This document shows, piece by piece, positions 20,522 through 57,952 of a DNA stretch of 64,000 nucleotides (position 1 is its first letter; each line of letters starts with the position of its first letter). This stretch comes from an uncultured Bacteroidia bacterium. Lineage in GTDB: Bacteria; Bacteroidota; Bacteroidia; Bacteroidales; UBA932. The stretch covers positions 186,001 through 250,000 of the forward strand of contig CACZXH010000007.1 of assembly GCA_902785065.1 (NCBI GenBank), given 5' to 3'. The position numbers and the translations under genes are program-made. Below the pieces are notes generated by a model. The model searched no databases, was not told the DNA's origin, and worked only from the letters and a program-made list of their open reading frames with translations.

Positions 20522-21975
20522 TACAGGATCAGTTTGAAGGTTTCAGTAACTATCTCTTTTTCGTCAAAATGCAGTTTTTCGTGCCCGATGATCTGGTAGT
20601 CCTCGTGGCCCTTGCCCGCCAGCAGGATCGTAGCGCCTTCGGGCGCCGTCAGGATGGCGGTGCGGATGGCTTCGCGGCGGTCCGTGATGAATACGGACTT
20701 GGCGAGTCCTTCCCAGTCCAGGCCGGCCCGGATATCGTTCAGAATGGCTTCCGGGTCTTCGGTCCGGCAGTTGTCGGAGGTGACGACGAGGCGGTCGGCG
20801 AGCCGGGCCGCGACCTGCGCCATCTCGGGGCGTTTGGTCTTGTCGCGGTCGCCGCCGCAGCCGAACAGGCAGATGAGCTGCCGCTCGGGGGCGACGTCGC
20901 GCAGGGTCCCCAGCACATTCTCCAGGGCGTCCGGGGTGTGGGCGTAGTCGATGACGACGGCCAGGTCGCGCGGGCCGCGGAGGTTCTCCAGGCGGCCGGG
21001 GGCGGACTGGAGGCCCGACAGGGCCACGAGGACCTCGTCCGGGTCCGTGCCCAGGCACACGGCGGTCGTGTAGATGGCGAGCAGGTTGTAGGCATTGTGC
21101 GCGCCGATGAGGCGGCTCCAGGTCTCCTTTCCGTCGATGCGGAGGAGCATGCCCTCGAAGCTCTGCTCCAGGATGCGGGCCGTGTGGTCGGCCGGACGCT
21201 TGCAGGCGTACGTGACCACCTTCGCGGCGGTGTTCTGGACCATTACGGGACCGTTCTTGTCATCGACATTGATGATCGCGTAGGCGGACTTCGGGAGATT
21301 GTCGAAGAAGAGCTTCTTGCAGCGGAGGTACTCCGCGAAGGTCTTGTGGTAGTCCAGGTGGTCGTGGGTCAGGTTGGAGAAGATGCCCGCGGCGAAGCGG
21401 AGGCCCGCCACGCGTTCCTGCTCCACGCCGATGGAGCTCACTTCCATGAAGCAGTATCCGCAGCCGGCGTCGACCATCTCGGCGAGGAGACGGTTGATGG
21501 TGATCGGGTCGGCCGTGGTGTTGGCGGTCTCGAGCCGGCGGTCGTCCACGTAGTTGGCAATGGTGGACAGCAGGCCGCAGGGATGGCCCAGGGCTTTGAA
21601 CAGGCGGTACAGCAGGGTGACGGTCGTGGTCTTCCCGTTCGTGCCGGTGATGCCCACGAGCGTCAGCTTCCGGCTCGGATGTCCGTAGAACGCATCCGCC
21701 GCCATCGCCACCGCATGCCGGCTGTTCGCCACCTGCACGAAGGTCACGTCATTCCCGGCCTGACCGGGAATCTCTTCGCAGATGACTGCCACGGCTCCTT
21801 TCTCCAGGGCCTGGCCAATGTACTTGTGCCCGTCGGAGGCGAAGCCGCGGACGGCAATGAACAGGGCGCCGGGCGTCACCTCCCGGGAATCCCCGGTGAC
21901 GGCGGTGATGTCGATGTCCTGCGAGCCGCGGATCTCCACGGCCTCGATATCCTGTATGAGTTCTCTCAGTTTCAT
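20521..21975 (-). CDS. murE: UDP-MurNAc-tripeptide synthetase MurE with repeat-encoded insertion
   Basis: MurE adds the third stem-peptide residue. The ATP loop is ITGTNGKTTTVTLLYRL, with TADPITINRLLAEM and the substrate-selecting motif DNCRTEDPEAI near the C-terminus. The usual meso-DAP signature is DNPR; here Pro is Cys while the DAP-contacting Arg remains, so diaminopimelate is still the likeliest substrate. Residues 67-77 ([11 protein letters not shown]) are encoded by a 27-bp palindrome also found in infB and elsewhere. They lie between the first strand-helix units of the N-terminal domain, a variable loop. The gene overlaps ftsI by four bases. Confidence 0.95.
   Translation of the reverse strand: MKLRELIQDIEAVEIRGSQDIDITAVTGDSREVTPGALFIAVRGFASDGHKYIGQALEKGAVAVICEEIPGQAGNDVTFVQVANSRHAVAMAADAFYGHPSRKLTLVGITGTNGKTTTVTLLYRLFKALGHPCGLLSTIANYVDDRRLETANTTADPITINRLLAEMVDAGCGYCFMEVSSIGVEQERVAGLRFAAGIFSNLTHDHLDYHKTFAEYLRCKKLFFDNLPKSAYAIINVDDKNGPVMVQNTAAKVVTYACKRPADHTARILEQSFEGMLLRIDGKETWSRLIGAHNAYNLLAIYTTAVCLGTDPDEVLVALSGLQSAPGRLENLRGPRDLAVVIDYAHTPDALENVLGTLRDVAPERQLICLFGCGGDRDKTKRPEMAQVAARLADRLVVTSDNCRTEDPEAILNDIRAGLDWEGLAKSVFITDRREAIRTAILTAPEGATILLAGKGHEDYQIIGHEKLHFDEKEIVTETFKLIL
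21748..21774. repeat. Palindromic repeat, family A (copy 1), inside murE
   Basis: It reads GTCATTCCCGGCC-TGA-CCGGGAATCTC on the plus strand, with an 8-bp core stem ATTCCCGG/CCGGGAAT. On the coding strand it reads EIPGQAGND. Other copies are at 47841, 50633, 55638 and 57926. Confidence 0.85.
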
Positions 21976-24137
21976 TTCAAGGTCAGTCGAATGGTTTCCC
22001 CCTTCTTGAGGGCGGCGCCGGGCGCCGGGTTCTGGGCCGTCACATGGCCGGTCCCTTCATACACACATTTGTAGCCGGCATTCTCCACGGCGTACAGGGC
22101 GTCCATCAGGGCGAAACCCTTCAGGTCGGGCGCCTTGCCGCCTTCCACCTGGACGCTGCGGGCCGCCATGGCGGGCAGGGTGCCGGTGGTGGCGATCCGC
22201 CCGGACCAGGTGTCGTCAATGGCGTAGATTTCGTCCACGATCTCCCGGACGGCCTGGGCGGGCTTGGTGCCGCCGTAGAAGCTCGCCCCGGACAGGTACG
22301 AATAGACCGTCACGAGGATGGTGTACTTCGGGTTATCCGCCGGGAAGAAACCCACGAAGGTGCCCTGGTTCTTCTTGCGGCCCCACGGGTCGTGGTACGG
22401 ATCGGCACTGCCCTTGCGCTCTTTCGGTGTCAGGACCACCTGCGCGGTGCCGGTCTTGCCTGCGACGGACAGCTTCGCGTCCTTCAGGCGCTTGGCCGTA
22501 CCGTCGTTCACGACGGCCTGGAGCGCGCGGGTCACCGTGTCGGCCGTGGCCCGGGTGCAAATGTTGTTCAGCACCGAGGGACCGTACTGCTTGAGCACCT
22601 TGCCGTCCTTCTCCACGCTCTCCACCACATAGGGCTTCATCATCCGGCCTTTGTTGGCGATGGCGTTGTAGAAGGTCACCACGTGCAGGGGGGTGACGGA
22701 CATGCCGTAGCCGTAGGCGGTGGTGCCCAGGGTCGTGCGGCTCCATCCCTTCGTGCCGGGCCGGTTCACGACCGGGGTGCCCAGGCCGTCCAGGTCGAAG
22801 TCGAACTTCTCGCCCAGGCGGTAGGCGTAGATGTGGTCGAAGAACTCCTGCGGATTGGCACCGTAGTACTTCTCCGGGAGATAGGTGAACACGTAGTTCG
22901 AGGAAATCTCGAACCCGTGTTTCACCGTGATCTCGCTGCGGCCGGTCAGCCGTTCGTAGTCCAGGATGTGGGCATCCAGGTTGTAGCCCGGAACGGCGCC
23001 GTGGTTGGTCGGAATAGTTTCTTCAAGGCTATGTACGTGCCCGTCCTCGACCAGGGACAGGAGCGTGACGGTTTTCATGACGGATCCCTGCTCGCCCACT
23101 TCCTTGAGGACGAGGTTGTCCCGCTCCCAGAGCTTGGAGCCCGGGATGGTGTCGCGGGAGAGGTTCACCATCGCGCGGATGGCGCCCGTCTCCACCTCCA
23201 TCAGGACGGCGATGCCGGCCCGGATCTGCGGATCGTCGGCGATCTGGCCGCGGAGGGCCCGGTCGGCGATGTCCTGGAAGTCGATGTTCAGGGTGGTGCG
23301 GATATCGTTGCCGTCCACGGCTTTCACCGTGGTGCTGTCGAAGTCGCGGATATACTTGCGGTCGTCGGTGACGCGGCGCCATTCGACGCCTTCCGTGCCG
23401 TGGAGTTCGTAGTCGTAGGTGCCCTCGATGCCGATGCGGTTCTGCTCGCGGACATAGCCGATGACGCGGCGGGCGAGGGTGTCGTACGGGTAGATGCGCT
23501 CGTCGTGCTCCTCGGCGATGAGGCCGCCCTTGTAGGCGCCTTCCCGGTAGAGGTGCAGCGTCTTCAGCGTCTGCAGGGTGGCATGGTTCACGTTCCGGCG
23601 GATGAGGACGTGCTTCTTGCCGTTCTCGCGCCCGGAGATGATGTCGCTGTAGTACTGGTCGGCGGACTTGGCGGGGAAGAGGCGGGCGAGCTCGCGGGAG
23701 AGTGTGTCGGCCTTGGCCTTCCAGAGCTTTTCGGCCGCAGCACCCTTGTACTGGGGCGCGGGGGCGTCCTTGCCTTCTTTCTTCAGCCGCTCGATCCGGC
23801 GGGCTTCCTTCCGGTCCATTTCCTCGAACTCGGACTTCCGGACGGTGCAGTCCATATAGATATCATAGAGGGGCGCCGTGATGGCGAGCGGCCGGCCGTC
23901 TTCGGCAAGGATGCGGCCGCGCTTGGGCTCCTCCACATAGCGGTCCGGCCGGGGGCGGAACAGGTTGATGACCCGCTTGTCCACGGAATAGGTCGCCTGG
24001 ATATGGCCGATGCACACGAGGATGCCCACCGACAGGATGATGAACAGCGTGGTAAGACCGACCATCACCAGGTGGATGCGGTCCCGGTTCTCGTAGGTGT
24101 CCCGGATTTCGGTCTTCTGTTTCTTCTTCGCGCTCAT
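21972..24137 (-). CDS. ftsI: Septal penicillin-binding protein FtsI (PBP3) with PASTA domain
   Basis: FtsI (721 residues) cross-links septal peptidoglycan and works with FtsW. After a cytoplasmic Lys-rich start there is one membrane helix (24-47), the PBP dimerisation domain starting RGRILAEDGRPLA, then the transpeptidase with SVMK (active Ser), SSNYVF (SxN) and VAGKTGTAQ (KTG). A C-terminal PASTA domain (APDLKGFALMDALYAVENAG to the end) is present, as in many Bacteroidota. Both ends overlap neighbouring genes. Confidence 0.95.
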   Translation of the reverse strand: MSAKKKQKTEIRDTYENRDRIHLVMVGLTTLFIILSVGILVCIGHIQATYSVDKRVINLFRPRPDRYVEEPKRGRILAEDGRPLAITAPLYDIYMDCTVRKSEFEEMDRKEARRIERLKKEGKDAPAPQYKGAAAEKLWKAKADTLSRELARLFPAKSADQYYSDIISGRENGKKHVLIRRNVNHATLQTLKTLHLYREGAYKGGLIAEEHDERIYPYDTLARRVIGYVREQNRIGIEGTYDYELHGTEGVEWRRVTDDRKYIRDFDSTTVKAVDGNDIRTTLNIDFQDIADRALRGQIADDPQIRAGIAVLMEVETGAIRAMVNLSRDTIPGSKLWERDNLVLKEVGEQGSVMKTVTLLSLVEDGHVHSLEETIPTNHGAVPGYNLDAHILDYERLTGRSEITVKHGFEISSNYVFTYLPEKYYGANPQEFFDHIYAYRLGEKFDFDLDGLGTPVVNRPGTKGWSRTTLGTTAYGYGMSVTPLHVVTFYNAIANKGRMMKPYVVESVEKDGKVLKQYGPSVLNNICTRATADTVTRALQAVVNDGTAKRLKDAKLSVAGKTGTAQVVLTPKERKGSADPYHDPWGRKKNQGTFVGFFPADNPKYTILVTVYSYLSGASFYGGTKPAQAVREIVDEIYAIDDTWSGRIATTGTLPAMAARSVQVEGGKAPDLKGFALMDALYAVENAGYKCVYEGTGHVTAQNPAPGAALKKGETIRLTLK

Positions 24138-24475
24138 CGCTTGTCGATCTTGATGGCCGGCTGCCCCGGCAGCGTCACGTCGGAGCCCAGCTGTTTCAGG
24201 CGTTTCGCCGTGGTGGAGGCGCTGTGCAGGCGCACAAGTTCGGCCTCCTTCTCGGCGTGGTAGATTTCCAGGTCCTTGAGGGCTGTCTTGTTCTCCTCCA
24301 CCCGGGTGAGGGTTCCGTCTACCTTCAGGCTCAGCAGGATGGAAATCCAGGCGAGCACGAACAGGTAGAGGATGTGCATGTAGTATTTGTGGGCGCCGAT
24401 GGAAAGGAGAAGTTCTCCTTTGCCCAGCGCGCGCCAGAAGTTCCTGATGCTCCGGCCGATTCCCTGCAGACTCAT
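24134..24475 (-). CDS. ftsL: Cell division protein FtsL-like
   Basis: This 113-residue bitopic protein has a basic cytoplasmic start, a membrane helix (about 34-52) and a leucine-zipper-like coiled coil (RVEENKTALKDLEIYHAEKE). Sequence conservation in FtsL is low. The call rests on topology, size and position between rsmH and ftsI, overlapping both by four bases. FtsL forms the FtsQLB complex that activates FtsWI. Confidence 0.85.
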   Translation of the reverse strand: MSLQGIGRSIRNFWRALGKGELLLSIGAHKYYMHILYLFVLAWISILLSLKVDGTLTRVEENKTALKDLEIYHAEKEAELVRLHSASTTAKRLKQLGSDVTLPGQPAIKIDKR

Positions 24476-25383
24476 TCCGCGGCCCTCCTTTCGGCTATCC
24501 GGAGCTTCGCGCTGCGGGCGCGGGTGTTCCCGGCGATTTCTTCCTCCTGGGGCAGGACGGGCTTCCGGTTCACGGCGACGAGCGGCGTGACGGTGCGTCC
24601 GTACAGGTCTTTCTCTTCGCGGCCTTCCACGTTGCCGGTCTTGATCCAGTTCTTGACCATCCGGTCCTCCAGGCTGTGGTAGGTGATGACCACGAGCCGG
24701 CCGCCATCCTTGAGGGAAGCCGTCGCGCCTTCGAGGAACTTCTCCAGGGAGCGCATCTCCTGGTTCACCTCGATGCGGAGGGCCTGGTAGATCTTGGCCA
24801 GGACCTTGTGCTCGGCACCCTTCGGAAGGATGCGGGCGACGGCGCGGTCCAGGTCGCCGGTCGTGCGGATTTCCTGCTGCTCCCGGGCGGCGGCGATGAG
24901 TTGGGCGACCCGGCGGGGCTGGTCCACCTCGCCGTACAGGCGGAGGATGCGCTCCAGGTCCTCGACGTCGGCGCCGTTCACGAGGTCGGCGGCGGTGGTT
25001 TTCCCGTCCGCGTTCATCCGCATGTCCAGCGGAGCGTCCTCGTATCGGAACGAGAAGCCGCGGTCTGCGGTGTCGAACTGGTGCGAGGATACGCCCAGGT
25101 CCGCCAGGATGCCGTCGAAGCGGACACCGTAGTGGCGGGCGTAGTTCTCGATGAAACGGAAGTTGTTGTGCACCATGGTCAGGCGCTTGTCGTCCGGCGC
25201 ATTGCTTACGGCGTCCCTGTCACGATCGAAGGCGATGACGCGCGCGCCATCGTGTAAGCGTGAAAGAAGTTCGGCAGTGTGGCCACCGCCTCCGAAAGTG
25301 GCATCGGCGTAAACGCCGTCGGGATTGATAACGAGGGCCGAAACGCTCTCGTCAAGCATTACAGGGGTATGGTATTCGGACAT
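24472..25383 (-). CDS. rsmH: 16S rRNA (cytosine-1402-N4)-methyltransferase
   Basis: RsmH/MraW (303 residues) methylates C1402 in the ribosomal P site using SAM. HTPVMLDE near the N-terminus, YADATFGGGGHT (SAM loop), ILADLGVSSHQFD, RGFSFRYEDAPLDMRM and VITYHSLEDRMVKNW are all diagnostic. The start at 25383 gives the standard N-terminus MSEYHTPV; an upstream in-frame extension overlaps mraZ and is rejected. It is 13 bp after mraZ. Confidence 0.97.
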   Translation of the reverse strand: MSEYHTPVMLDESVSALVINPDGVYADATFGGGGHTAELLSRLHDGARVIAFDRDRDAVSNAPDDKRLTMVHNNFRFIENYARHYGVRFDGILADLGVSSHQFDTADRGFSFRYEDAPLDMRMNADGKTTAADLVNGADVEDLERILRLYGEVDQPRRVAQLIAAAREQQEIRTTGDLDRAVARILPKGAEHKVLAKIYQALRIEVNQEMRSLEKFLEGATASLKDGGRLVVITYHSLEDRMVKNWIKTGNVEGREEKDLYGRTVTPLVAVNRKPVLPQEEEIAGNTRARSAKLRIAERRAAE

Positions 25384-25396
25384 GGTGCGAAACCTC

Positions 25397-25858
25397 CTAT
25401 TTCTTTGCGGAAAGTTTCGCTGCGGTTGCCTGGAACGTTTCGTCTCCCATGAGGGTGGACGCGCGACGTTCCTTGGGCCAGATTTCGATCTTGTAACCGA
25501 CCCCCGCGAACACGACTTCCTTGGTGATACCTGTCTGTTCAAGCAGTTCCGAAGGAATGTTCAGGCGGCCGAGTTTCCCGTCCGGGACGACATAATAGAC
25601 GCCGTCGTTGAATTTGCTCCAGAACGCGGCGTGTTCGGGATTGAGTTCAGGGTCGAGTCCTTCCAGGACCTGGTCGCACCTGCGGTCCCACTCTGCGCGG
25701 GTGAACAGGTTCAGGCAGTTGCCCTGGACGCTCTTCTTGACAACCAGGGTCATGTCTTCCTCGCCCGTCCGGACGAACTCGTCCCGGAAGACGGCCGGGA
25801 ACACGATGCGTCCCTTGTCGTCCACCTTGCCGAATGCATTTCCGCGGAATCTGACCAT
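25397..25858 (-). CDS. mraZ: Transcriptional regulator MraZ
   Basis: MraZ (153 residues) is a double AbrB-fold DNA-binding protein that represses the dcw operon. Two copies of the family motif are seen: GKVDDKGRIVFPAVFRDEF (about 10-28) and GKLGRLNIPSELLEQTGI (about 94-111). It is first in the cluster, and four TGGR repeats with 10-bp spacing lie upstream of its promoter, fitting autoregulation. Confidence 0.95.
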   Translation of the reverse strand: MVRFRGNAFGKVDDKGRIVFPAVFRDEFVRTGEEDMTLVVKKSVQGNCLNLFTRAEWDRRCDQVLEGLDPELNPEHAAFWSKFNDGVYYVVPDGKLGRLNIPSELLEQTGITKEVVFAGVGYKIEIWPKERRASTLMGDETFQATAAKLSAKK

Positions 25859-25899
25859 GGTTTTTCAGTGTTGAACTTATCTTTCTTTCACGCTGAGTG

Positions 25900-25907
25900 C
25901 AAAGTTA
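25900..25907 (-). promoter_or_regulatory. dcw cluster promoter -7 box
   Basis: The minus strand reads TAACTTTG, 42 bases before the mraZ ATG. It is the only TAnnTTTG match upstream of mraZ and would drive the whole mraZ-to-ftsZ operon. Confidence 0.65.
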
Positions 25908-25917
25908 AGAAAATCCT

Positions 25918-25951
25918 TCCATTTTCACCCATAATTTTCCAAATTTTTCCA
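25918..25951 (-). promoter_or_regulatory. Probable MraZ operator: four TGGR repeats at 10-bp spacing
   Basis: On the minus strand TGGA, TGGA, TGGG and TGGA begin at 25951, 25941, 25931 and 25921, exactly 10 bp apart, immediately upstream of the -7 box and covering the -33 region. E. coli and other MraZ proteins bind direct TGGGN repeats separated by 5 bases, the same 10-bp period. Binding here is inferred. Confidence 0.7.
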
Positions 25952-25958
25952 CAAAAAG

Positions 25959-25981: not shown

Positions 25982-26029
25982 CTGTAGGGCGTTTTTGGGA
26001 ATATTCACGAGATATTCGGAAATATTGAT

Positions 26030-40131: not shown

Positions 40132-42256
40132 TGCCGTCGGCGAATTCGACCTCGAAGGTGGTCCAGTCCTTGTTCGCGGCACGGATGACGCCCTCGCCAA
40201 AGACGGTGTGGGTGACGGTGTCGCCGATGTGGAAGGGACTCTTGAGCTCCGCCCGTTCCTCGGTGAAGTCGACGCTATCTAGGTCGATGGGGCGGTGCGG
40301 ATCGAACTCCTCGTCCAGGACGTGGATGAGGTTCCGGGTGCCGCGCCAGAGCTCCTCGGGGATAAAGCCTTCGGTGACAACCATTTCCCGCTTGATTTCC
40401 GCGAGGAAGCGGGAGGGGTACTTGTTCATCTTCGTCGACAGGTTGAAGCCTTCCGACTCGGTGAGGAACAGCGCCTTCTCGGCGCGGGTGACGGCGACGT
40501 ACATAAGCCGGCGCTCCTCTTCCTCGCCGTTCTTCTTGTATTCGCGGATGGTCCTGAGGTTCGGGAACACGCCCTCGGACAGGCCGATGATGAAGACATA
40601 CGGGAACTCGAGGCCCTTCGCCTGATGGATGGTCATCAGCTTGAGGGTGGGGACGTCCTTGCGGTGGTCGTCGTTCGTGTATAGGGCGATGTCCTGGAGG
40701 TAGTCGGCGAGGGTGGATTCATCCGGGGTGCGGACGGACTCGTAGAAGCGGATGGAGGAGAGGAGTTCGTCCAGGTTCTCCAGCCGGTCTTCGTCCTGGT
40801 CCTCGCGGATGTCCTGCTTGAGGCCGGAACGGTCCAGCAGGCGGTTCAGGAGATCGCTCACGCGATGCTCTAGCGCATAGGCCTTGGCGTCCTCGACGAG
40901 GTCGACAAAGGCCTGGGCCGTCGGTTTTCCGTAGCCGTCGCGGATCTGGAGGGCGCTGAAGAGGGAGACGCCGTCGCGGTCCGCATCGGCCCTTAAAGTG
41001 TCCAGGAACTTCTTGCCGAGCTTGCGGGAGGGGACGTTGACGATGCGCTCAAAGGCGAGGTCGTCGTCCTGGTTGCTGACGAGGCGGAGGTAGGAGAGGG
41101 CGTCCTTGATCTCCCTTCTTTCGAAGAAGCGGGTGCCGCCCCAAACGGTGTATTCCAGGCGGGCGTTCAGGAGCGCCTGCTCCAGCGCGCGGGACTGGTA
41201 GGTGCTGCGGTACAGGATCGCGATGTCATTGACCTTGGCGTCATGGGCGAGAAGCGTCTTGATCTGCGCGACGATCCAGTCCATCTCCTCCTTCTCGGAC
41301 TTGCCGTGGTAGTGGATGACCGCGCGGCCTTCGGCCTTCCGGGTGAAGAGGTCCTTCGGGATGCGGTTCTTGTTGTGGGAGATGACCGAGTTGGCGACGT
41401 CCAGGATCTTCGGGGTGGAGCGGTAGTTCTCGTCCAGGATGACGGTCCGGTCGGCCGCGAACTGGACGAAGAGGTCCGGCCGCGCGCCGCGCCATTCGTA
41501 GATGGCCTGGTCCGGGTCGCCCACGATGAAGAGGTTGCGGTGCTTCGCCGCGAGCCGCTCCACGAGGTCCCAGTCGTCCAGGTTGCAGTCCTGCGCCTCG
41601 TCCACCATGATGTAGTTCAGCGTGTTCTGCCACCATTCGCAGGCCTCCGGGAAGCGGTCCAGGATGTATTTCGTGACGTTGATGAGGTCGTCGAAGTCGA
41701 GGGCGTAGTTCTTCATCTGCCGGCTCACGTAGCCCGCGAGGCGGTTGCCCTTCCGCATCTCGTCGGTGATCTTCGCCCCCGGGAGCATGAAGGCCGGGAT
41801 GTACCCGTTCAGGGCCTTGTCGACCGAGACCATGTCCAGGAACTGCTTGACCGTCTTCTCGGTGCGCTTGAGGCCCATCTCGTCCATCGCCTGCTTCGCG
41901 ATGGACTTGCAGTCCTCCTCGTCCAGGACGGTGAAGCCCTTGGGGAAGCCGAGGCGGTAGATCTCTTTCCGGAGGAACTTGACGCAGAAACCGTGGATGG
42001 TGCACACGAAGTCGTTGTAGTCGCCGCTGTGGACCATCCCCGCGATGCGGGCGCGCATCTCCGCGGCCGCCTTGTTCGTGAAGGTGAGGCACAGGATGTT
42101 CGCCGGGTCGATGCCGAGGACATTGACCAGGTACGCATACCGGTGGGTCAGCGCCTTCGTCTTGCCCGTACCGGCCCCGGCCACGACGCGGATCCTTCCC
42201 TCCGTCGTGGTCACGGCCTCCTTCTGGCGGCTGTTCAGTCCCTCGAAAATATCCAT
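40079..42256 (-). CDS. UvrD/PcrA-type 3'-5' DNA helicase
   Basis: This 725-residue SF1A helicase carries LNSRQKEAV (Q motif), Walker A VAGAGTGKTKAL, LTFTNKAAAEM (Ia), VDEAQD (II), GDPDQAIYEWRGA (III), LDENYRS (IV), TIHQAKGLEFPYVFI (V) and VAVTRAEKAL (VI). It ends in a KOW/Tudor-like segment (GDTVTHTVFGEGVIRAANKD) as in PcrA. It acts in repair and replication-fork clearing. The start at 42256 overlaps the pncA stop in TAATG; the upstream in-frame extension antiparallel to pncA coding is rejected. A PcrA or UvrD label is equally valid. Confidence 0.93.
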   Translation of the reverse strand: MDIFEGLNSRQKEAVTTTEGRIRVVAGAGTGKTKALTHRYAYLVNVLGIDPANILCLTFTNKAAAEMRARIAGMVHSGDYNDFVCTIHGFCVKFLRKEIYRLGFPKGFTVLDEEDCKSIAKQAMDEMGLKRTEKTVKQFLDMVSVDKALNGYIPAFMLPGAKITDEMRKGNRLAGYVSRQMKNYALDFDDLINVTKYILDRFPEACEWWQNTLNYIMVDEAQDCNLDDWDLVERLAAKHRNLFIVGDPDQAIYEWRGARPDLFVQFAADRTVILDENYRSTPKILDVANSVISHNKNRIPKDLFTRKAEGRAVIHYHGKSEKEEMDWIVAQIKTLLAHDAKVNDIAILYRSTYQSRALEQALLNARLEYTVWGGTRFFERREIKDALSYLRLVSNQDDDLAFERIVNVPSRKLGKKFLDTLRADADRDGVSLFSALQIRDGYGKPTAQAFVDLVEDAKAYALEHRVSDLLNRLLDRSGLKQDIREDQDEDRLENLDELLSSIRFYESVRTPDESTLADYLQDIALYTNDDHRKDVPTLKLMTIHQAKGLEFPYVFIIGLSEGVFPNLRTIREYKKNGEEEERRLMYVAVTRAEKALFLTESEGFNLSTKMNKYPSRFLAEIKREMVVTEGFIPEELWRGTRNLIHVLDEEFDPHRPIDLDSVDFTEERAELKSPFHIGDTVTHTVFGEGVIRAANKDWTTFEVEFADGKVRSLRAAFLKLADLPE

Positions 42257-42855
42257 TAAATCAGGTGGATCCCTTCCTCCTCCATCGCCTTCAGCGCCTC
42301 CACATGCCCGGCCGCATCGACCCAGGCGAGGGCATCCTTCAGGACGTACACCGCGAAACCGTCCTTCAGGAGGTCCTCCGCGGTGTTGCGGACGCAGTAT
42401 TCCGTGGCGATGCCGCACACGAGGACGTTCTTGATGTCCAGGAGCTTCAGGACCTCGGCGAGGCTCTGCCCGGCGGCGTTCATCCCCTCGAAGCCGCTGT
42501 ACTGCTCCTGGGTCGGGTCCTCGCCCTTGAAGAAGGTCAGGTCCTCCTTCACGTAGGGGAGGAGGGCTTCATGGACATCGGCTCCATGGGTGCCCTGGAC
42601 ACAGTGCGGCGGCCAGGGACCGCCCTGCTCGGCGAACGAGCAGTGGTCCGCGGGATGATGGTCCCGGATGAAGAGGATCGGATAGGTGGAAACGACGCCC
42701 GTGTCGTCGGCGTCCGTCCCGGCGGTGAGCCGATCGATGGCCTTCAGCGTGCCCTCGATGGCCCCCTCGGCCCCCTGGCACGCCATACTCCCGTCGATGA
42801 AGTCGTAGAGCATGTCCACGACCACCAGTGCGCTGTCTTTCAGGTTCTTTGCCAT
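42256..42855 (-). CDS. pncA: Nicotinamidase
   Basis: This 199-residue isochorismatase-fold amidase converts nicotinamide to nicotinate. The catalytic Asp is in VVVDMLYDF, a Lys follows in LPYVKEDLTFFKG, and the nucleophile Cys is in GIATEYCVRNTAEDL. HHPADHCSF gives the metal site. It is two bases after pncB, so the Preiss-Handler salvage steps are in one operon. Confidence 0.93.
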   Translation of the reverse strand: MAKNLKDSALVVVDMLYDFIDGSMACQGAEGAIEGTLKAIDRLTAGTDADDTGVVSTYPILFIRDHHPADHCSFAEQGGPWPPHCVQGTHGADVHEALLPYVKEDLTFFKGEDPTQEQYSGFEGMNAAGQSLAEVLKLLDIKNVLVCGIATEYCVRNTAEDLLKDGFAVYVLKDALAWVDAAGHVEALKAMEEEGIHLI

Positions 42856-47543: not shown

Positions 47544-48317
47544 ATGAAAGCGATGATCTTTGCCGCGGGGCTGGGGACCCGCCTGAAACCGATTACGGAC
47601 ACGATGCCGAAGGCGCTCGTGCCCGTGTGCGGGCAACCGTTGCTTTACCACGTCATCAACAAGCTTGTTGCGGCGGGGTATGACGACCTTGTGGTGAATG
47701 TCCATCACTTCCCGGACCAGATCATCCACTATCTCCACTCCCACGATTTCGGCGCCCGCATCGCCGTCTCCGACGAAAGGGATTTCCTGCGGGAGACTGG
47801 CGGGGGTATCCGCTATGCGAAGCACCTGCTGACAGAGGATGAGATTCCCGGTCTGGCCGGGAATGACGGAATCGAGCCCTTCCTCGTCCATAACGTGGAC
47901 ATTGTCAGTAACTTGGACCTCAACTGGCTGCGGGAGCAGCACCGGGAAGAGGCGCTGGCGACGCTGGTGGCGAGCGAACGGAAGACGCAGCGGTATTTCC
48001 TGTTTGACGAAGACAACCGGCTGAAAGGATGGACCAACATCGCGACCGGGGAAGTCCGCAGCCCGTTCCCGGACATCGACCCGGACCGGTGCCGCAAGCT
48101 CGCCTTCGCCGGCATCCACCTGATGTCGCCGGCCATCTTCGACGCCTTCGACCGGTACGGCTTCGGCGACCGTTTCTCCATCGTGGACTTCTACCTCCGC
48201 GCCTGCGCCGAGTATCCCATCTTCGCCGCCGTCCCGCCGGACTTCCAATTGGTTGATGTGGGCAAAAAAGAAACCCTCTCCGAAGCGGAAAGGGTTTGTG
48301 AAGCTATTCTGAAGTAA
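47544..48317 (+). CDS. MurU-like sugar-1-phosphate nucleotidyltransferase
   Basis: A 257-residue NTP transferase: MIFAAGLGTRLKPITDTMPKALVPV is the nucleotide-binding signature, with ETGGGIRYAKHLL, the metal Asp in FLVHNVDIVSN and FAGIHLMSP. Length and motifs fit MurU (MurNAc-1-P uridylyltransferase), and the preceding AmgK-like kinase would make its substrate, so the pair probably returns MurNAc to UDP-MurNAc, bypassing de novo synthesis. Residues 100-108 (EIPGLAGND) come from an in-frame family A palindrome placed just before the metal-binding strand. The last 30 codons double as a terminator for the convergent gene. Confidence 0.82.
   Translation: MKAMIFAAGLGTRLKPITDTMPKALVPVCGQPLLYHVINKLVAAGYDDLVVNVHHFPDQIIHYLHSHDFGARIAVSDERDFLRETGGGIRYAKHLLTEDEIPGLAGNDGIEPFLVHNVDIVSNLDLNWLREQHREEALATLVASERKTQRYFLFDEDNRLKGWTNIATGEVRSPFPDIDPDRCRKLAFAGIHLMSPAIFDAFDRYGFGDRFSIVDFYLRACAEYPIFAAVPPDFQLVDVGKKETLSEAERVCEAILK
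47841..47867. repeat. Palindromic repeat, family A (copy 2), inside the MurU-like gene
   Basis: GAGATTCCCGGTC-TGG-CCGGGAATGAC. It differs by one base from the copies at 21748 (read on the opposite strand) and 50633, and is read as EIPGLAGND in the same frame as in MurE and InfB. Confidence 0.85.
48264..48297 (-). terminator. Rho-independent terminator of the CPBP gene, inside the MurU-like CDS
   Basis: On the minus strand AAACCCTTTCCG-CTT-CGGAGAGGGTTT forms a 12-bp stem with one mismatch followed by CTTTTTT. It lies 28 bases past the CPBP stop and is wholly within the 3' end of the convergent MurU-like gene. Confidence 0.8.
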
Positions 48318-50318: not shown

Positions 50319-50633
50319 ATGGCAGACCAGAAGCAGAAGGGCAGCCTGCTGACGCGCAGCGACCACAATTACTTCCTCCCGTTCGTGATCGTCATCACGG
50401 CGGTGGCGGCGCTGTGGCTGCTGTTCTTCTCCCACAGCAGCGTCTTGAACTGGGTCCGCGCGAACCTGGAGATCCAGCGCCAGGAGCGCCAGATGGAAAG
50501 GCTCCGCAACGACATCGACGCGATGGACGCCGAGATCCAGGCCCTCACGAACAGCCGGGATTCCCTGGAAAAGTTCGCCCGGGAAACCTACCACTTCGCC
50601 GCTCCGGGCGAAGATGTCTACATCATTGAATAG
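50319..50633 (+). CDS. FtsB/DivIC-like septum formation initiator
   Basis: This 104-residue bitopic protein has a cytoplasmic polar start, one membrane helix (about 22-39), a coiled coil (EIQRQERQMERLRNDIDAMD) and the conserved ending EKFARETYHFAAPGEDVYII. It probably completes the FtsQLB complex with ftsL and ftsQ in the dcw cluster. Its stop codon touches a family A palindrome that separates it from folP. Confidence 0.9.
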   Translation: MADQKQKGSLLTRSDHNYFLPFVIVITAVAALWLLFFSHSSVLNWVRANLEIQRQERQMERLRNDIDAMDAEIQALTNSRDSLEKFARETYHFAAPGEDVYIIE

Positions 50634-50659
50634 AGATTCCCGGTCAGGCCGGGAATGAC
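50633..50659. repeat. Palindromic repeat, family A (copy 3), shared by the FtsB-like and folP ends
   Basis: GAGATTCCCGGTC-AGG-CCGGGAATGAC begins at the last base of the FtsB-like stop codon and includes the last five codons and the stop of folP (SSFPA then TGA). It may serve as a terminator hairpin for both. Confidence 0.85.
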
Positions 50660-51444
50660 GAAAAGATCTCCACCGTGCGGCGCGCTTCGGCGACGTCGTG
50701 CACGCGGAGCCAGGTGGCGCCGCGCTGGAGCGCCAGCAAGTGCGCGACCTGCGTCGCGGGAAGCGATTCCTCAGGCGTAATGCCGAACCGCTTGTAAATC
50801 ATGCTTTTACGGGAGACGCCCACGAGGATGGGCATCTGCAGGACCTGCAGGAGGTCCAGTTCTTCCAGCAAGGTCCAGTTCTGTTCCACCGTCTTGGCGA
50901 AGCCGAAGCCCGGGTCCAGGATCCAGTCCGTGACACCGGCCTTCGCAGCCCGCTTGGCAAACGCCTTGAAATACCGCAGGACCTCCGCCGTCACCCCGTG
51001 GGGATAGTCGGTCATCGACTGCATCGTTTCCGGCGTTCCGCGCATATGCATGGCGATGTAGGGGAGGGCGAGCCGGCCCACGAGCGGCAGCATCTGCGCA
51101 TCGAACGTCCCGGCCGAAATGTCATTGACCATAAACGGGCCGATGAGGTCGTACGCCCGCTCGACGACGGATGACCAGTAAGTGTCGATGGAAACGCGGG
51201 CGTCCGGGAACGCCTGCCGGAGGGCCTGCAGGGCCGGTTCCAGCCGCCGCCACTCCTCGTCCGCCCCGACGGGCTGCGCCCCGGGCCGGGTGGAACAGGC
51301 GCCGATGTCGATCCAGTCCGCCCCTTCCGCGAGCATCGTTCCGACGCGTGATAGGAAGGCGTCCGGGTCCTGCGCCCGGCTCGCGGCGTAATACGAGTCG
51401 TCCGTGAGGTTTACGATGCCGAGGAGGTGGATTTTCGGTTTCAT
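50644..51444 (-). CDS. folP: Dihydropteroate synthase
   Basis: This 266-residue TIM-barrel enzyme condenses p-aminobenzoate with dihydropterin pyrophosphate in folate synthesis. LLGIVNLTDDSYY (usual NVTPDSF), DIGACSTRPGA, ILDPGFGFAKT, GVSRKSMI and LRVHDVAEAR are present. The Pro of the first motif is Asp. The C-terminal residues and stop codon come from a palindromic repeat. A TATTTTTG box ends 5 bases before the ATG. Confidence 0.94.
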   Translation of the reverse strand: MKPKIHLLGIVNLTDDSYYAASRAQDPDAFLSRVGTMLAEGADWIDIGACSTRPGAQPVGADEEWRRLEPALQALRQAFPDARVSIDTYWSSVVERAYDLIGPFMVNDISAGTFDAQMLPLVGRLALPYIAMHMRGTPETMQSMTDYPHGVTAEVLRYFKAFAKRAAKAGVTDWILDPGFGFAKTVEQNWTLLEELDLLQVLQMPILVGVSRKSMIYKRFGITPEESLPATQVAHLLALQRGATWLRVHDVAEARRTVEIFSSFPA

Positions 51445-52166: not shown

Positions 52167-53329
52167 AAAAGGCACATCATAGAATCCGGCGTTTCTGCGC
52201 CATCATCATCGGCCTGGTGTTCCTCGCCTCGGGCCTGCTGAAACTGCTGGACCCGGTGGGGACCGGCCTCATCGTCAGCGAATACTTCAAGTTTTTCCAC
52301 CTGGGCTTCCTGCAGGGGACCGCGAAGGCCCTCGGCATGGTCCTGTCCCTCGTGGAGGCCACGACCGGCGCGGCGCTTATCAGCGGCGTCTTCCGCAAGA
52401 CAACGGCGGTTATCACGTCCATCCTCGTGGTATTCTTTACGATCGTCACCCTGATCCTCTGGATTGCGAATCCGGAAATGGACTGCGGCTGCTTCGGCGA
52501 GGCCATCCACCTCTCCCACGGGCAGACGCTCCTGAAGAACGTCGTCCTGCTGGCGTTGGCCGCCATCGCCTTCATCCCGTTCCAGAACTTCGGCGTGCCC
52601 CGGAAGGGAAAGTACGTGGCCTTCTTCCTGGCCGTTCCTTCCCTCGTCTTCGCCCTCTGCCACAACGCCCGGCACCTGCCGATGATCGACTTTACGGAGT
52701 TCGCTCCCGGCACGGAACTCTTTGCTTCGCTGGACAATGATTATCAGGAAATGGACGGTAAGGTCCCGACCTTCATTTACGAGCGGAACGGGCAGCGCGG
52801 GTCTTTCACCCTGGACGCCCTGCCGGATTCCACCTGGACTTTCGTCGGTGTGGACACCCTCAGCCGCAGCGGGATGTACAAGAACGCCGCCAAGCCGGTC
52901 CTCTCCTTCCGGGATGCGGAGGGCGAGTACCAGGACGAGCTGGCCGTGCTCGGGAAAGTGATGGTATTCTCCGTGTATGATCCGGAGGAGGCCGATTGGG
53001 ACTGCATCCGCTCACAGGCCGCCGAGGCCCGCGTCTGCGGCGCGACGCCCCTCATCCTCGCCGTCCCGGGCGAATACACCCCGGAAGATGTGTATCTGGC
53101 TGATTACAAGCCGCTTATCACGCTGAACCGTGCCAACGGCGGCGCGACCTACTTCAACGACGGGGAACTGATCTCGAAATGGAGTCCCCGCGACGTTCCC
53201 GAAGCGGAGGAACTCAAGAACCTGCTCGACCGCGAGCCCGTGGGCCTCTCCACCGATTTCATCACCGGACGCCGCATCCGGGCGCAGGGTTTCACGCTCT
53301 ACCTGCTGGCCATGCTTCTCCTTCTGTAA
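52163..53329 (+). CDS. DoxX/MauE-like membrane protein (BT_3928-type)
   Basis: This 388-residue protein begins with four membrane helices of DoxX/MauE type (about 10-145), including VFLASGLLKLLDPVGTG and the conserved DCGCFGEAI loop. Another helix follows near 152-170, then a soluble domain (about 175-370) resembling a thioredoxin-like fold but without CxxC, and a final hydrophobic segment. The Cys pair in DCGCFG hints at redox or quinone chemistry. It is coupled to tmk, as I recall for Bacteroidales BT_3928-family proteins. Confidence 0.75.
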   Translation: MKKAHHRIRRFCAIIIGLVFLASGLLKLLDPVGTGLIVSEYFKFFHLGFLQGTAKALGMVLSLVEATTGAALISGVFRKTTAVITSILVVFFTIVTLILWIANPEMDCGCFGEAIHLSHGQTLLKNVVLLALAAIAFIPFQNFGVPRKGKYVAFFLAVPSLVFALCHNARHLPMIDFTEFAPGTELFASLDNDYQEMDGKVPTFIYERNGQRGSFTLDALPDSTWTFVGVDTLSRSGMYKNAAKPVLSFRDAEGEYQDELAVLGKVMVFSVYDPEEADWDCIRSQAAEARVCGATPLILAVPGEYTPEDVYLADYKPLITLNRANGGATYFNDGELISKWSPRDVPEAEELKNLLDREPVGLSTDFITGRRIRAQGFTLYLLAMLLLL

Positions 53330-53335
53330 TACAAG

Positions 53336-53364
53336 AAACGCCCGCTCTTGGAAGCGGGCGTTTT
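53336..53364. terminator. Bidirectional terminator between DoxX-like gene and infB
   Basis: AAACGCCCGCT and GCGGGCGTTTT form a 10-bp GC-rich stem with flanking A and T runs on both strands, 7 bases after the DoxX-like stop and 21 before the infB stop. Confidence 0.9.
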
Positions 53365-53384
53365 CGTTCATGGGCGGGTCCTGT

Positions 53385-56137
53385 TTACAGGCTTCGCTTG
53401 ATTTCCACGACCGTGAAGGCCTCGATGATATCTCCGATGTGGATATCGTTGAAGCGTTCCAGGGCGCAGCCGCACTCGAAGCCGGTGGCGACTTCCTTGG
53501 CGTCGTCCTTGCCGCGCTGGAGCGAGGCGAGGGCGCCGGTGTACACCACGATGCCGTCGCGGATCAGGCGCACCTGGGCCTTGGCCGTGAGCTTGCCTTC
53601 CTTGACCTGGCAGCCGGCGATGGTGCCGACCTTGGAGATCTTGAAGGTCTGCTTGACCTCGGCGGTAGCGGTGACCTCTTCCTTCTTCTCCGGTTCGAGC
53701 ATACCCTCGATACCCTCTTTGACTTCGTTGATACAGTCGTAGATGACGGAGTAGAGGCGGATTTCGATGCCCTCCTTCTCCGCGGCACGGCGCGCTTCGG
53801 CGGAAGGACGGACCTGGAAGCCGATGATCACGGCATCGGAGGCCTCGGCCAGCAGGACGTCGCTCTCGGAGATGGCGCCCACGGCCTTGTGGATCACGTT
53901 CACGCGCACTTCCTCGGTGCTGAGCTTGATGAGGGAGTCGGACAGGGCTTCGACGGAACCGTCCACGTCGCCCTTGACGATGATGTTGAGTTCCTTGAAG
54001 TTGCCGATGGCGATACGGCGGCCGATCTCCTCGAGGGTGAGGTGCTTCTGGGTCTTGATGCCCTGGATGCGGATGAGCTGCTCGCGGCGGTTGGCGATGG
54101 ACTTGGCTTCCTTCTCGTCGGTCATCACGTTGAACTTCTCACCGGCGGCGGGAGCGCCGTTGAGGCCGAGGATGGACACCGGCGTGGAAGGGCCGGCTTC
54201 CTGGACCTTCTGTCCGCGTTCGTTGAACATCGCCTTGACACGGCCGTAGTAGCTGCCGGAGATGATCACGTCGCCCACATGCATTGTGCCGTCCTGCACG
54301 AGGACGGTGGCGAGGTAGCCACGGCCCTTGTCCAGGGAGGACTCGATGACGGCGCCGCTGCCGAGCTTGTTCGGATTGGCCTTGAGTTCCAGGAGGTCGG
54401 TCTCGAAGAGGACCTTCTCCAGGAGCTTGTCCACGTTGATACCCTTCTTGGCGGAGATTTCCTGGCACTGGTACTTGCCGCCCCAGTCTTCCACGAGGAT
54501 GTTCATCTCGGAGAGCTGGCGGCGGATGGTGTCGGGATTCGCACCGGGCTTGTCGATCTTGTTGATGGCGAACACCATCGGGACGCCGGCGGCCTGCGCG
54601 TGGGCGATGGCCTCCTTGGTCTGGGGCATCACGGCGTCGTCGGCCGCGACGATGATGATGGCGAGGTCGGTCATCTGGGCGCCGCGGGCGCGCATGGCGG
54701 TGAAGGCCTCGTGGCCCGGGGTGTCCAGGAAGGTGATGCGGCGGCCGCTGGCGAGCTTCACGTTGTACGCGCCGATGTGCTGGGTGATACCGCCCGCCTC
54801 GCCGGCGATGACGTTCGTGTTGCGGATGTTGTCCAGGAGGGAGGTCTTACCGTGGTCGACGTGACCCATCACGGTGATCACCGGAGGACGCTCGACGAGG
54901 TCTTCCTCCTTGTCCGGTTCCTGCTGCTCGATCTCCTCGGTCAGCTCGGCGGTGACGAATTCCACCTTGTAGCCGAACTCCTCGGCCACCAGGACGAGGG
55001 TCTCGGCGTCCAGACGCTGGTTGATGGACACCATCATACCCAGGGACATGCAGGCGCCGATGACCTTCACCACGGGGGTGTTGTTCATCAGGGTGGCGAG
55101 GTCGTTGACCGTTACGAACTCGGTGACTTTCAGTACCTTGTTCTCGGCCATCGCCTGCTCCATCTCCTCCTGCGAACGGATGGCGGCCAGTTCGCGCTTC
55201 TCCTTGCGGTGCTTCGCGCCGAAGTTGTTCTTGGTCTCGTTCATCCGCGCGTAGGTCTCCTTGACCTGCTTCTGGATCTCCTTCTGCATCTCCTCCTGCT
55301 CGGCCTCGGTGAGGACCGGCTTGGAGAAACGGTCGTTGCCGCGCTTGCGGCCCTTGCCGGCGGCTGCAGGTTCCTGCTTCTTGCCGCCCTTGTTGGGCTC
55401 GTTCTTCTTCGGGGTCTTGTCGGCCTGCACCTTGGTGACGTCCACTTTCTGGGAGCCGCCGCCCTTGATGCGTTCGCGCTTCTTGCCCTTCTTCGGGTCG
55501 AACTGCGTCAGGTCGATCTTGCCGACGACCTTGAGCTGGGTGGCGGGCTGGGCCGGGGCCTCCGGGGCGGGAGTTTCCGCTGGGGTCTGGGCGGAAGGGG
55601 TCTCCTCGACGGGGGCGGCAGGCTCAGGCTCTTGCTCATCATTCCCGGCTTGACCGGGAATCTCTTCTTCCGGCTCGGATGCAACGACCGGCTCCGGTTC
55701 GGGCTCGACTACGGGCTCCGGCTCCACGACGGGCTCCGGTTCGGGTTCCGGTTCGGGTTCGACCACGGGCTCCGGCTCCACAATCGGCTCCGGTCCGGGT
55801 TCGACCACGGGTTCAGGCTCCACGACGGGCTCCGGTTCCGGTTCCACGACGGGCTCCGGCTCCGGTTCCTTCACCGGTTCCGGCTCCACGGTGGCGCGGG
55901 ACAGGTTGTTGCTCTTGATCACGGTGACGCGCTCCGGCTCGTACTCGTCCTCTTCCTCGCGGGAGCCGGACGGGCGGCGGGAAGCCTTGTCCAGGATCTC
56001 GGTGAGCTTCACGTCCACCTTCTCGGCGGCTTCCTTGAGCTCGAGGTCCTTGCCGAACTTCTTGTGCAGCTCGGGCAGGAACTATCCAGCCCGATGTTGA
56101 ATTGCTTGATAAGTTTGTTCAGTCTGATTTCTGCCAT
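53385..56137 (-). CDS. infB: Translation initiation factor IF-2, frameshifted/deleted near the N-terminus
   Basis: IF-2 delivers initiator tRNA to the ribosome. The main frame (56081-53385) holds the G domain ([31 protein letters not shown]) and the C-terminal tRNA-binding domains. The true start appears to be ATG 56137 ([19 protein letters not shown]), but that frame does not join the main one: at about 56081-56086 the text passes from GLDS to [19 protein letters not shown] in another frame, and relatives have roughly 20 more residues between these blocks. The main frame is closed upstream by TAG at 56082-56084; its first plausible start is GTG 56018. A (Glu-Pro)n tract and a family A repeat ([11 protein letters not shown]) lie in the linker. 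This is either a real deletion or an assembly error. Confidence 0.9.
55638..55664. repeat. Palindromic repeat, family A (copy 4), inside infB
   Basis: ATCATTCCCGGCT-TGA-CCGGGAATCTC; read in infB as EIPGQAGND, the same peptide and frame as in MurE. It sits in the disordered N-terminal linker. Confidence 0.85.
55690..55890. repeat. Degenerate (Glu-Pro-Val) codon repeat in the infB linker
   Basis: Repeated CCGGTTCGGGTTC/CGACCACGGGCTC-type units of 12-18 bases encode [10 protein letters not shown] runs. Such acidic Pro-rich linkers occur in the N-terminal region of IF-2 and are prone to length change. Confidence 0.85.
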
Positions 56138-56160
56138 ATAGTAACCCCAGTTTTTTCAGT

Positions 56161-57432
56161 TTATTCTTCCTCGAATTCGGACTTCAGGATGGAGAAGACC
56201 TCTTCCACGGTCTCGTCTTCCAGGTCGGCGCGGCTGGCGATGTCGGCCGGCGAGAGGGCGAGGACGCTCTTCGCGGTGTCGCAGCCGATGGCCTGCAGGC
56301 GCTCGATGACCCAAGGGTCGATCACGTCGGTGAACTCGCTCAGGAGGACGTCTTCCTCTTCGGCCTCGTCCTGCGGGAGTTCGCGCCAGACCTCGATCTC
56401 GCGGCCGACGAGCATGCCGGCGAGCTTGATGTTGCAGCCGCCCTTGCCGATGCCCTTCTTCACTTCCTCGGCCTGCATGTAGACCTTGATCTTGTCCTCG
56501 GGACCTTCGCCCAGGTCGATGCGGGAAATGCGGGCCGGGTTGAGGGCGCGGGTGATCATGAGCTGCGTGTTCGCGGTCCACTGGATCACGTCGATGTTCT
56601 CGTTGCGGAGCTCGCGGACGATGCCCATGATGCGGGAACCCTTGACACCGATGCAGGCGCCGATCGGGTCGATGCGGTCGTCATAGGACTCCACGGCCAC
56701 CTTGGCGCGCTCGCCCGGGATGCGGACGACCTTCTTCACGGTGATCAGGCCGTCGTAGATTTCCGGAACCTCCATCTCGAACAGCTTCTCGAGGAAGGAG
56801 TCGGTGGTGCGGGACAGGACGATGTACGGTGTCGTGTTGTTCTTCATCTCCACGCTCTTGATGATGGCGCGGATGGTGTCGTTCTTCTTGAAGCGCTCGC
56901 CCGGGATCTGTTCGGACTTGGGCATGCGGAGCTCGTTGCCGTCCTCGTCGAGGATGAGGACCTCGTTCTTCCAGGTCTGGTACACCTCGCCGGTGAAGAT
57001 CTCGCCCACCTTGCCGGAGTACTTCTTGAAGACATTGGCCTTCTCGATGTCCATGATCCGGCCCTGCAGGTTCTGGCGGATGTTCAGGATGCCGCGGCGG
57101 CCGAAGGAGGAGAGGCTGAGCTTGCGGGTGTAGGTGTCGCCGATCTCGTAGTCGTCGTCACCGGTCTCCTCGGCGATCTCTTCCACGGTGATCTCCGTGG
57201 CGGGATTCTCGACTTCCTCGACCACCTCGAAGTTCTGGTAGATCTCGCAGTCGCCCTTGTCCACGTTGATGATCACGTCGAAGTTGTCGGCGCTGCCGTA
57301 GGTCTTGGCGAGCTGGGTGAGGAACACATCCTTCAGGACACCGAGCATCACGGGACGGTCGATGCTTTTCTCTTCCTTGAAATCCTTGAACGCGTCGATC
57401 AAGGTGATTTCTTTTTCTTTGTCTTTTGCCAT
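56161..57432 (-). CDS. nusA: Transcription termination/antitermination factor NusA
   Basis: NusA (423 residues) binds RNA polymerase and modulates pausing and termination. The N-terminal domain (1-125), S1 domain (GEIFTGEVYQTWKNEVLILD) and two KH domains (PGERAKVAVES, IGACIGVKGSRIMGIVREL, LNPARISRI) are present, with an acidic C-terminus ending in helix-hairpin-helix-like repeats. It sits between rimP and infB, the usual order. Confidence 0.96.
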   Translation of the reverse strand: MAKDKEKEITLIDAFKDFKEEKSIDRPVMLGVLKDVFLTQLAKTYGSADNFDVIINVDKGDCEIYQNFEVVEEVENPATEITVEEIAEETGDDDYEIGDTYTRKLSLSSFGRRGILNIRQNLQGRIMDIEKANVFKKYSGKVGEIFTGEVYQTWKNEVLILDEDGNELRMPKSEQIPGERFKKNDTIRAIIKSVEMKNNTTPYIVLSRTTDSFLEKLFEMEVPEIYDGLITVKKVVRIPGERAKVAVESYDDRIDPIGACIGVKGSRIMGIVRELRNENIDVIQWTANTQLMITRALNPARISRIDLGEGPEDKIKVYMQAEEVKKGIGKGGCNIKLAGMLVGREIEVWRELPQDEAEEEDVLLSEFTDVIDPWVIERLQAIGCDTAKSVLALSPADIASRADLEDETVEEVFSILKSEFEEE

Positions 57433-57447
57433 TGTGGTTATCTTGTA

Positions 57448-57915
57448 TTATTTGAAATCGATGTAGGGGGTGACGGAATTGATCTCGGCGAGCGGGCAGG
57501 TTTCCTCGTGCTCCACCTTCTCTTTCTTTTTCTTGCCTTCCACGGCCTCCAGGGCGGTGTACTGCAGGGTGACGGCTTCCTCGGTCGCCGCCTTGAGGAG
57601 GGCGACGAGCCGGCGCCCGCCCTTGAACTTCACGTCCACCTTGGAGCCCACGGCCTTCAGGTACTGCTTAAGTACCTTGAAGGGCCGGTCCAGTCCGGCG
57701 GAGGAGACGGTGAGGGAATAGTCCTCCACGTCCTGGTCGAACGCTTCGTGCACGACCTTGTCGATGGCGGCGCAGTCGTCCCAATCCACGATGCCGTCCT
57801 CCTTCTCGAGGACGATTTCCACGTCGTTCATGGCGTTCACCGTGACATCCACGATGAAGCATCCTCTTTCAGCGACCGCCGCTTCCACGGCCTGGATGAT
57901 CTCTTCCTTTTTCAT
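57448..57915 (-). CDS. rimP: Ribosome maturation factor RimP
   Basis: RimP (155 residues) assists 30S assembly. VNAMNDVEIVLEKEDGIVDWDDCAAI and LTVSSAGLDRPFKVLKQY match the family. The start at 57915 (MKKEEIIQAV) is preferred; the frame continues upstream through a family A palindrome as far as 58032, which would add a non-family N-terminus. First gene of rimP-nusA-infB. Confidence 0.93.
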   Translation of the reverse strand: MKKEEIIQAVEAAVAERGCFIVDVTVNAMNDVEIVLEKEDGIVDWDDCAAIDKVVHEAFDQDVEDYSLTVSSAGLDRPFKVLKQYLKAVGSKVDVKFKGGRRLVALLKAATEEAVTLQYTALEAVEGKKKKEKVEHEETCPLAEINSVTPYIDFK

Positions 57916-57925
57916 TTTTCCTTCC

Positions 57926-57952
57926 GTCATTCCCGGCTTGACCGGGAATCTC
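57926..57952. repeat. Palindromic repeat, family A (copy 5), in the rimP leader
   Basis: GTCATTCCCGGCT-TGA-CCGGGAATCTC lies 11 bases upstream of the rimP ATG, inside the expected 5' untranslated region. As RNA it would form a stable hairpin next to the start. Confidence 0.85.

Follow-up and report, generated by a model that had tools for sequence, protein, structure and literature searches.

The 64,000-nt stretch analysed here (hereafter the window; positions 186,001 to 250,000 of contig CACZXH010000007.1, GenBank assembly GCA_902785065.1, from an uncultured Bacteroidia bacterium of the Bacteroidales) carries copies of a short palindromic repeat between and inside genes, three of which lie in the reading frames of unrelated enzymes, MurE, a MurU-like protein and InfB (Table 1). 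A sequence-only reading of this DNA had placed the palindrome at five positions and all five were confirmed, as a search with GATTCCCGGTCNNGCCGGGAATGAC allowing up to three mismatches gave five matches in the window and none in each of 100 dinucleotide shuffles. As it had also stated, the units in the three hosts have the same orientation and the same frame relative to the host and encode the same peptide, EIPG(Q/L)AGND. MurE and InfB are essential proteins, and the description of a selfish-looking palindrome sitting in frame in conserved, partly essential enzymes is supported. The other two copies were indeed found at gene edges, that at 50633 at a convergent junction and that at 57926 just upstream of RimP. 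Unit 50633 begins on the G that ends the TAG stop codon of a DivIC-like open reading frame (ORF), and it contains the TGA stop of a dihydropteroate-synthase-like (Pterin_bind) ORF. The listed ATG start of a MatE-family ORF falls within a sixth, diverged copy; the protein may start with repeat-encoded residues, or the listed start may be misplaced.

Table 1. Copies of the palindromic repeat in the window and the genes that host them.
Feature	Position	Strand	Evidence and remarks
Unit in murE, reads EIPGQAGND	21748..21774	-	Pattern match; G003 has a head-to-head pair at the site
murE (UDP-MurNAc-tripeptide ligase type), host	20521..21975	-	Three Mur_ligase Pfam domains; PDB MurE matches
Unit in MurU-like gene, reads EIPGLAGND	47841..47867	+	Pattern match; relatives aligned; structure model
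MurU-like nucleotidyltransferase, host	47544..48317	+	NTP_transferase Pfam; PDB matches including N-acetylmuramate 1-phosphate uridylyltransferase
Unit at convergent gene junction (50631-50661)	50633..50659	+	Pattern match
Unit in infB, reads EIPGQAGND, low-complexity N-terminal linker	55638..55664	-	Pattern match, 1 mismatch
infB (translation initiation factor 2), host	53385..56018	-	IF-2, IF2_N and GTP_EFTU Pfam domains
Unit directly upstream of the RimP start codon, rimP-nusA-infB cluster	57926..57952	-	Pattern match
Diverged unit GATGCCCGATCAAGTCGGGCATGAC, 5' end of MatE-family ORF	63967..63991	-	Sixth window copy, not listed by the sequence-only reading

The unit is a palindrome of 25-28 bp, one strand of which reads GAGATTCCCGGTCAAGCCGGGAATGACG and the reverse strand CGTC-ATTCCCGG-CTTGA-CCGGGAAT-CTC. 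The stem, made by ATTCCCGG and CCGGGAAT or their paired variants, is 8 bp long with AT at its first positions, and the loops have 5 nt (TCAAG, TCAGG, TCGAG and TCTGG). Stem variants found were TTCCCGG/CCGGGAA, TTCCGGG/CCCGGAA, TGCCCGG/CCGGGCA, TTGCCGG/CCGGCAA and TGGCCGA/TCGGCCA, and because this variation is paired across the stem the feature common to the copies is the hairpin rather than the peptide. The CGTC end was completed on the reverse strand by G in 63 of 74 rows (one site is listed twice) and by A, giving TGTC, in 10. The tail is short, CTC or TC; the base preceding GAT was A in 65 of the 74 rows and the next one out was G in 50, the GAT and AT themselves being demanded by the stem search pattern. 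Close pairs (within 90 bp; n=26) were arranged head-to-head in 19 cases, tail-to-tail in five and head-to-tail in two, and 12 head-to-head pairs were located inside genes. Some units are followed by tandem copies of their 3' half, approximately TCAAGCCGGGAATGACG (loci L004, L007, L012, L027, L037, L255 and L261), and such half-copies also occur in frame within proteins, where they produce runs such as QAGND or ARND.

The source genome of the window (G000; 2.74 Mb, 50 contigs, 95% complete) was searched whole. It contained 57 matches at up to three mismatches and none to the reversed control, and a looser stem pattern matched 81 times against six in the control. When a palindrome rule was applied over the stretches fetched from G000, approximately 73 units were recovered, at least one of them of a different sequence type. 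The core sequence (no more than one mismatch) was also sought in 81 genomes, 49 of the same genus and 32 from other families of the order. It was detected in 22, all of them among the 49 of the same genus, leaving 27 of that genus without it, and was absent from all 32 of the others at the same threshold.

Carriage inside genes was scored on stretches fetched around the units of G000 and its same-genus relatives, a sample that is partial for the relatives. Merging of similar flanks reduced 230 raw units to 191; units less than 250 bp from a locus end were omitted, and the unit pattern also admits other CGTC-like sequences (for example at L044). Same-site pairs in homologous genes, of which there are at least three (L009/L237, L068/L234 and L082/L206), were kept separate and their independence is doubtful. 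A unit was called in-gene if the frame was open across it and the sequence was coding-like on both sides; two units scored as uncertain (both at L218) were entered neither as in-gene nor as edge. By this rule 65 units were in genes, two were doubtful and 124 were not. As the same test scored just 370 of 600 random positions of the window and 394 of 846 at the repeat loci as in-gene, 65 of 191 underestimates the true coding location. Compared with these random positions, in-gene units were depleted about 1.8-fold (window, p=2.7e-11) or 1.4-fold (same loci, p=0.0016); despite this shortfall, in-gene copies are common.

The 65 units were distributed over 52 ORFs, or 53 with the ORF that holds the two doubtful units; 23 of the 53 are in G000, and a Pfam family could be assigned to 48. 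In addition to the hosts in the window these include MurB, FtsK, UvrA (L235, L260), asparagine synthase, superoxide dismutase, HydF, methionine synthase, a WecB-type epimerase and several glycoside hydrolases. Relative to ORF length (stop to stop, with some ORFs truncated at a stretch end) the units were positioned from 0.06 to 0.79, and so misplaced start codons are no general explanation for their location.

It had been proposed from the sequence that the palindrome is tolerated only in the Gly/Asn-rich frame, and this was not borne out: of the 65 units, 33 use the EIPG frame and the remaining 32 are spread over four further frames (16, 12, 3 and 1), with none in the sixth. The main palindrome can be read without a stop in four of its six frames, and the frame of the single unit in the fifth is open only in a loop variant; an open frame belongs to the in-gene definition, and the two stop-containing frames could hardly score. 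Among the 41 in-gene single units four frames were used 23/10/7/1 times (p=1.4e-5), and among the 29 core singles the four open ones were used 18/5/5/1 times (p=4.6e-5), EIPGQAGND being favoured; both tests take the units to be independent and the four frames to be equally likely. The preference for one frame is real but not absolute, and it stems in part from how seldom the RFPVKPGMT frame is used, perhaps due to its hydrophobic, basic peptide with an internal ATG. Copies spread evenly over the frames and mostly outside genes, the pattern that the sequence-only reading held would speak against it, were encountered by half, as 126 of the 191 units were not scored in-gene and the frames of those that were are uneven.

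The nine residues had been suspected to be an insertion in each of the three hosts, which was upheld for MurU but not, as weighed below, for MurE. The residues in the MurU-like protein are missing from all 40 aligned relatives, 38 of which have a shorter loop, and judged by this alignment the unit is an insertion. Residues 101-108 (IPGLAGND) of the structure model have a predicted local distance difference test score (pLDDT) below 50 against a mean of 91.7, and the loop with the unit is accordingly modelled as a disordered, low-confidence segment. Other, longer inserts are found at the MurU loop at L094 and L123. The former (metagenome genome RUG12336; nearest named MurU relative, 76% identical) has a 119-bp inverted repeat in frame in this loop (10289-10407), with 29-nt arms that are 90% complementary, and it is different from the CGTC unit. 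The InfB residues were absent from three of three aligned relatives, at a site that is a low-complexity linker. Comparison with solved homologues indicated net insertions in superoxide dismutase, asparagine synthetase B and WecB.

Some loops have received repeats in several species. The MurE loop varies widely in length over 30 aligned sequences (61 were found, and G000 is included among the 30). It carries one unit in G000 and a head-to-head pair in the sister genome G003, which is approximately 90-98% identical by block over part of the window; a decayed copy in G014, alike at 22 of 25 bases by eye, keeps EIPAQAGKD. Residues shared by relatives had been named as evidence against the proposal, and at MurE they were seen only in these two genomes, decayed in the second. 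The same loop has a repeat in the opposite orientation in G083 and other repeat types with half-copies in G005 and G089 (recognised by eye). At the loop of an HI0933-family protein intact hairpins were present in three of 30 sequences (G000, G008 and G037), in three frames and two orientations, and G003 is without most of the insert. A hairpin scan over orthologues was compared with the expectation from codon shuffles. MurE gave 11 matches against 1.40 expected, of which six were the conserved host stretch FMEVSSI, one was elsewhere and four, from three genomes, were at the loop; MurB gave four against 0.70 and the HI0933 family four against 0.45, with one elsewhere in each. MurU relatives gave four against 2.60, with no repeat unit at the loop and hence no support. 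The same loops in MurE and the HI0933 family are used by different palindromes and orientations across species, and separate events at the same loops point to loops that tolerate insertion. Among MurB homologues (L307-L336) two loops are very variable in length and often have repeat-like peptides, such as CHSERSEES and VIPSEVEES, by eye.

G000 and G003 were compared over 21 aligned stretch pairs. Eighteen G000 units were shared and three were absent in G003, and 16 G003 units were shared and one was absent in G000. The unit particular to G003 is at the 3' end of the ORF at window positions 42256-42855, between flanks 0.96 and 0.91 identical, and at L011 half of a pair is present in G000 only (flanks 0.91 and 0.95). 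The two other G000 units are weaker cases: a 65-bp mixed pair at L020, where the right flank is 0.61 identical, and the unit at L028, where the left flank is 0.47. Poor flanks also occur among the units counted as shared (at L005 and L050). By eye, the sites that differ between G000 and G003 show no evident target duplication. Shared units at L034, L050 and L053 differ from those of G003 by a swapped C:G pair, with a loop change too at L050 and L053, which fits compensatory change or replacement by another subtype. Units gained or lost between such close species indicate continuing turnover.

Two Y1-transposase genes are encoded by G000, and neither has a CGTC repeat within approximately 1.5 kb beyond chance-level matches. 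A REP-associated tyrosine transposase (RAYT; REP, repetitive extragenic palindrome) was rejected as the mover, there being no adjacency to the repeat in G000. Among the matches listed for same-genus relatives, one unit was within 2 kb of a Y1 gene (contig G032:C16). A Y1 gene was detected in 20 of 22 repeat-bearing genomes and in 17 of 27 without the repeat (Fisher p=0.043), an association that is weak and confounded by genome completeness. One Y1 gene of G000, at L031 1-3162 (G000:C15), stands between pairs of another palindrome, GTGACGTCCC..GGGACGTCAC, approximately 51 bp apart, and these pairs also stand alone at G000:C10 and G000:C2; by analogy this arrangement looks like a RAYT with its own repeats.

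The unit was compared with published repeat classes. CGTC-tagged REPs were defined by Di Nocera et al. 2013 (PMC3733652), who place dRS3, RPE-4 and RPE-6 in the class and describe an unpaired CGTC at the end, in many cases TGTC or CCTC instead, a stem of 8-9 bp starting with AT, a loop of 4-5 nt, a short unpaired tail that is CCA in most but not all, and dimers that are mostly head-to-head. Because its CGTC end, 8-bp AT stem and 5-nt loop fit this description, the unit is assigned to the CGTC REPs, which include dRS3 of Neisseria; the stem of 8 and loop of 5 agree with the text on CGTC family 2, a likeness of description only. Head-to-head dimers prevail in both, neither has a transposase flanked by the repeat, and REPs inside genes, uvrA included, are already described there. 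Unlike in the published class, about a third of the sampled units are in genes and tandem 3' half-copies stand beside some. By contrast, REPs are stated in PMC12306157 to overlap coding regions seldom.

The likeness to Rickettsia palindromic elements (RPEs) that had been suggested is apt, as RPE-4 and RPE-6, with in-gene copies in R. conorii, belong to the same CGTC class according to PMC3733652; their hosts are of a different phylum, and they are likened to the unit by that assignment and not by sequence. The longer RPEs of 105-146 bp are likewise palindromic and occur as in-frame fusions in 19 Rickettsia reading frames, among them conserved proteins, one RPE-containing protein having been shown to be translated and active (PMC2229807). 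At 25-28 bp, or approximately 60 bp for a pair, the unit is far shorter and outside that size range. GTAG REPs and REPINs (REP doublets forming hairpins) are also short hairpins, often in inverted pairs and expanded in particular lineages, but the unit ends in CGTC and CTC without GTAG and flanks no RAYT gene. It is a known kind of repeat, and both CGTC REPs in Bacteroidetes and REPs in genes have been reported (PMC3733652). Titles and abstract openings among the matches listed from the open-licence literature contained nothing on in-frame palindromes in this genus or in Bacteroidales, and nothing on the recurrence of palindromes at one loop.

The unit is very probably a CGTC-tagged REP that has multiplied in this Bacteroidales genus, is still turning over, and persists in genes where it is tolerated. 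It looks like a small mobile repeat because it is found in frame in many enzymes, in several frames and sometimes in the same loop across species. The 25-28 bp hairpin, alone or as a head-to-head pair, would land both between and inside genes. In-gene copies would survive if they do not interrupt the reading frame and if a permissive loop or linker takes up the added residues, and they would be retained because the host protein tolerates them, not because they are useful to it. The unit may move as a single-strand hairpin on which an enzyme acts in trans. Several results pull the other way. The units in MurB and UvrA replace a loop of about the same length and add no residues, that of the HI0933-family protein is no clear net insertion relative to a solved homologue, and MurE is no simple insertion, since G038 (78% identical) has unrelated residues of equal length. 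Most units are shared with G003 (18 of 21 and 16 of 17), making turnover modest; no transposase was linked to the repeat, two repeat-bearing genomes showed no Y1 transposase, and the tail is CTC where that of the published class is mostly CCA. 

A functional nucleic-acid element kept at gene ends, such as a terminator, an mRNA stabiliser or a protein-binding site, with the in-gene copies as by-products, is improbable. The 124 of 191 units not scored inside genes, the maintained hairpin pairing and the window copies at the convergent junction and ahead of rimP agree with it, but distribution is patchy within the genus (27 of 49 genomes without the core), in-gene copies are just 1.4- to 1.8-fold below random, and there is no fixed gene context. 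There is a similarly small chance that in-gene copies are favoured, the loops being beneficial and permissive loops repeated landing sites. The differing repeats and orientations at the MurE and HI0933-family loops, the other inverted-repeat insert at the L094 MurU loop and the frame bias would suit this; insertion-tolerant loops would give the same recurrence without benefit, however, most of the HI0933-family insert is missing from G003, and copies decay, as in G014. Selection for EIPGQAGND as a protein motif, with the DNA likeness following from the peptide, is hardly credible: half of the in-gene units are in the EIPG frame and the MurE of G014 retains EIPAQAGKD despite a decayed palindrome, but identical DNA also lies beyond genes and, within them, is read in four further frames, the stem varies in a paired fashion at the DNA level, and the hosts are unrelated enzymes. 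It was rejected on the other frames and the intergenic copies. An artefact of short repeats mis-joined in metagenome assemblies is equally far-fetched, for although the genomes are fragmentary and some matches are at contig ends (e.g. G020:C180), the same in-frame copies with aligned flanks are present in the separate assemblies of G000 and G003, and frames stay open across copies.

A CGTC REP in this genus bears on a question left undecided in PMC3733652, in which CGTC REPs, having no transposase of their own, are regarded as maybe going extinct, namely whether copies continue to arise. The units gained or lost between the two sister genomes indicate that turnover goes on, and a genus with many sequenced species allows a search for the mover. 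The unit is unusually well tolerated inside genes, and its in-gene copies are a direct case of protein lengthening by mobile DNA and mark out in nature which loops tolerate insertion, including some of essential enzymes. That the repeat lies in genes so often, and that different palindromes occupy the same loops, would surprise a specialist. A wider proposal, which we advance tentatively and consider somewhat doubtful, is that several families of short, mobile palindromic repeats are a main source of new surface loops in the conserved enzymes of this genus. Insertion would recur at the same permissive loops (those of MurE, the HI0933 family, MurB and MurU), the inserts would afterwards be trimmed, decay or grow by tandem half-copies, and the repeat would remain active without an adjacent RAYT.

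A second CGTC-like repeat, ATTTCTCGACAAGCTCGAAATGAC, is present at window positions 6922-6945 and 15194-15217 (minus strand) and has 20 matches in G000. Its copy at 15194-15217 takes up almost all of the 28 bp that separate two dcw genes (Mur ligase and Glyco_transf_28).

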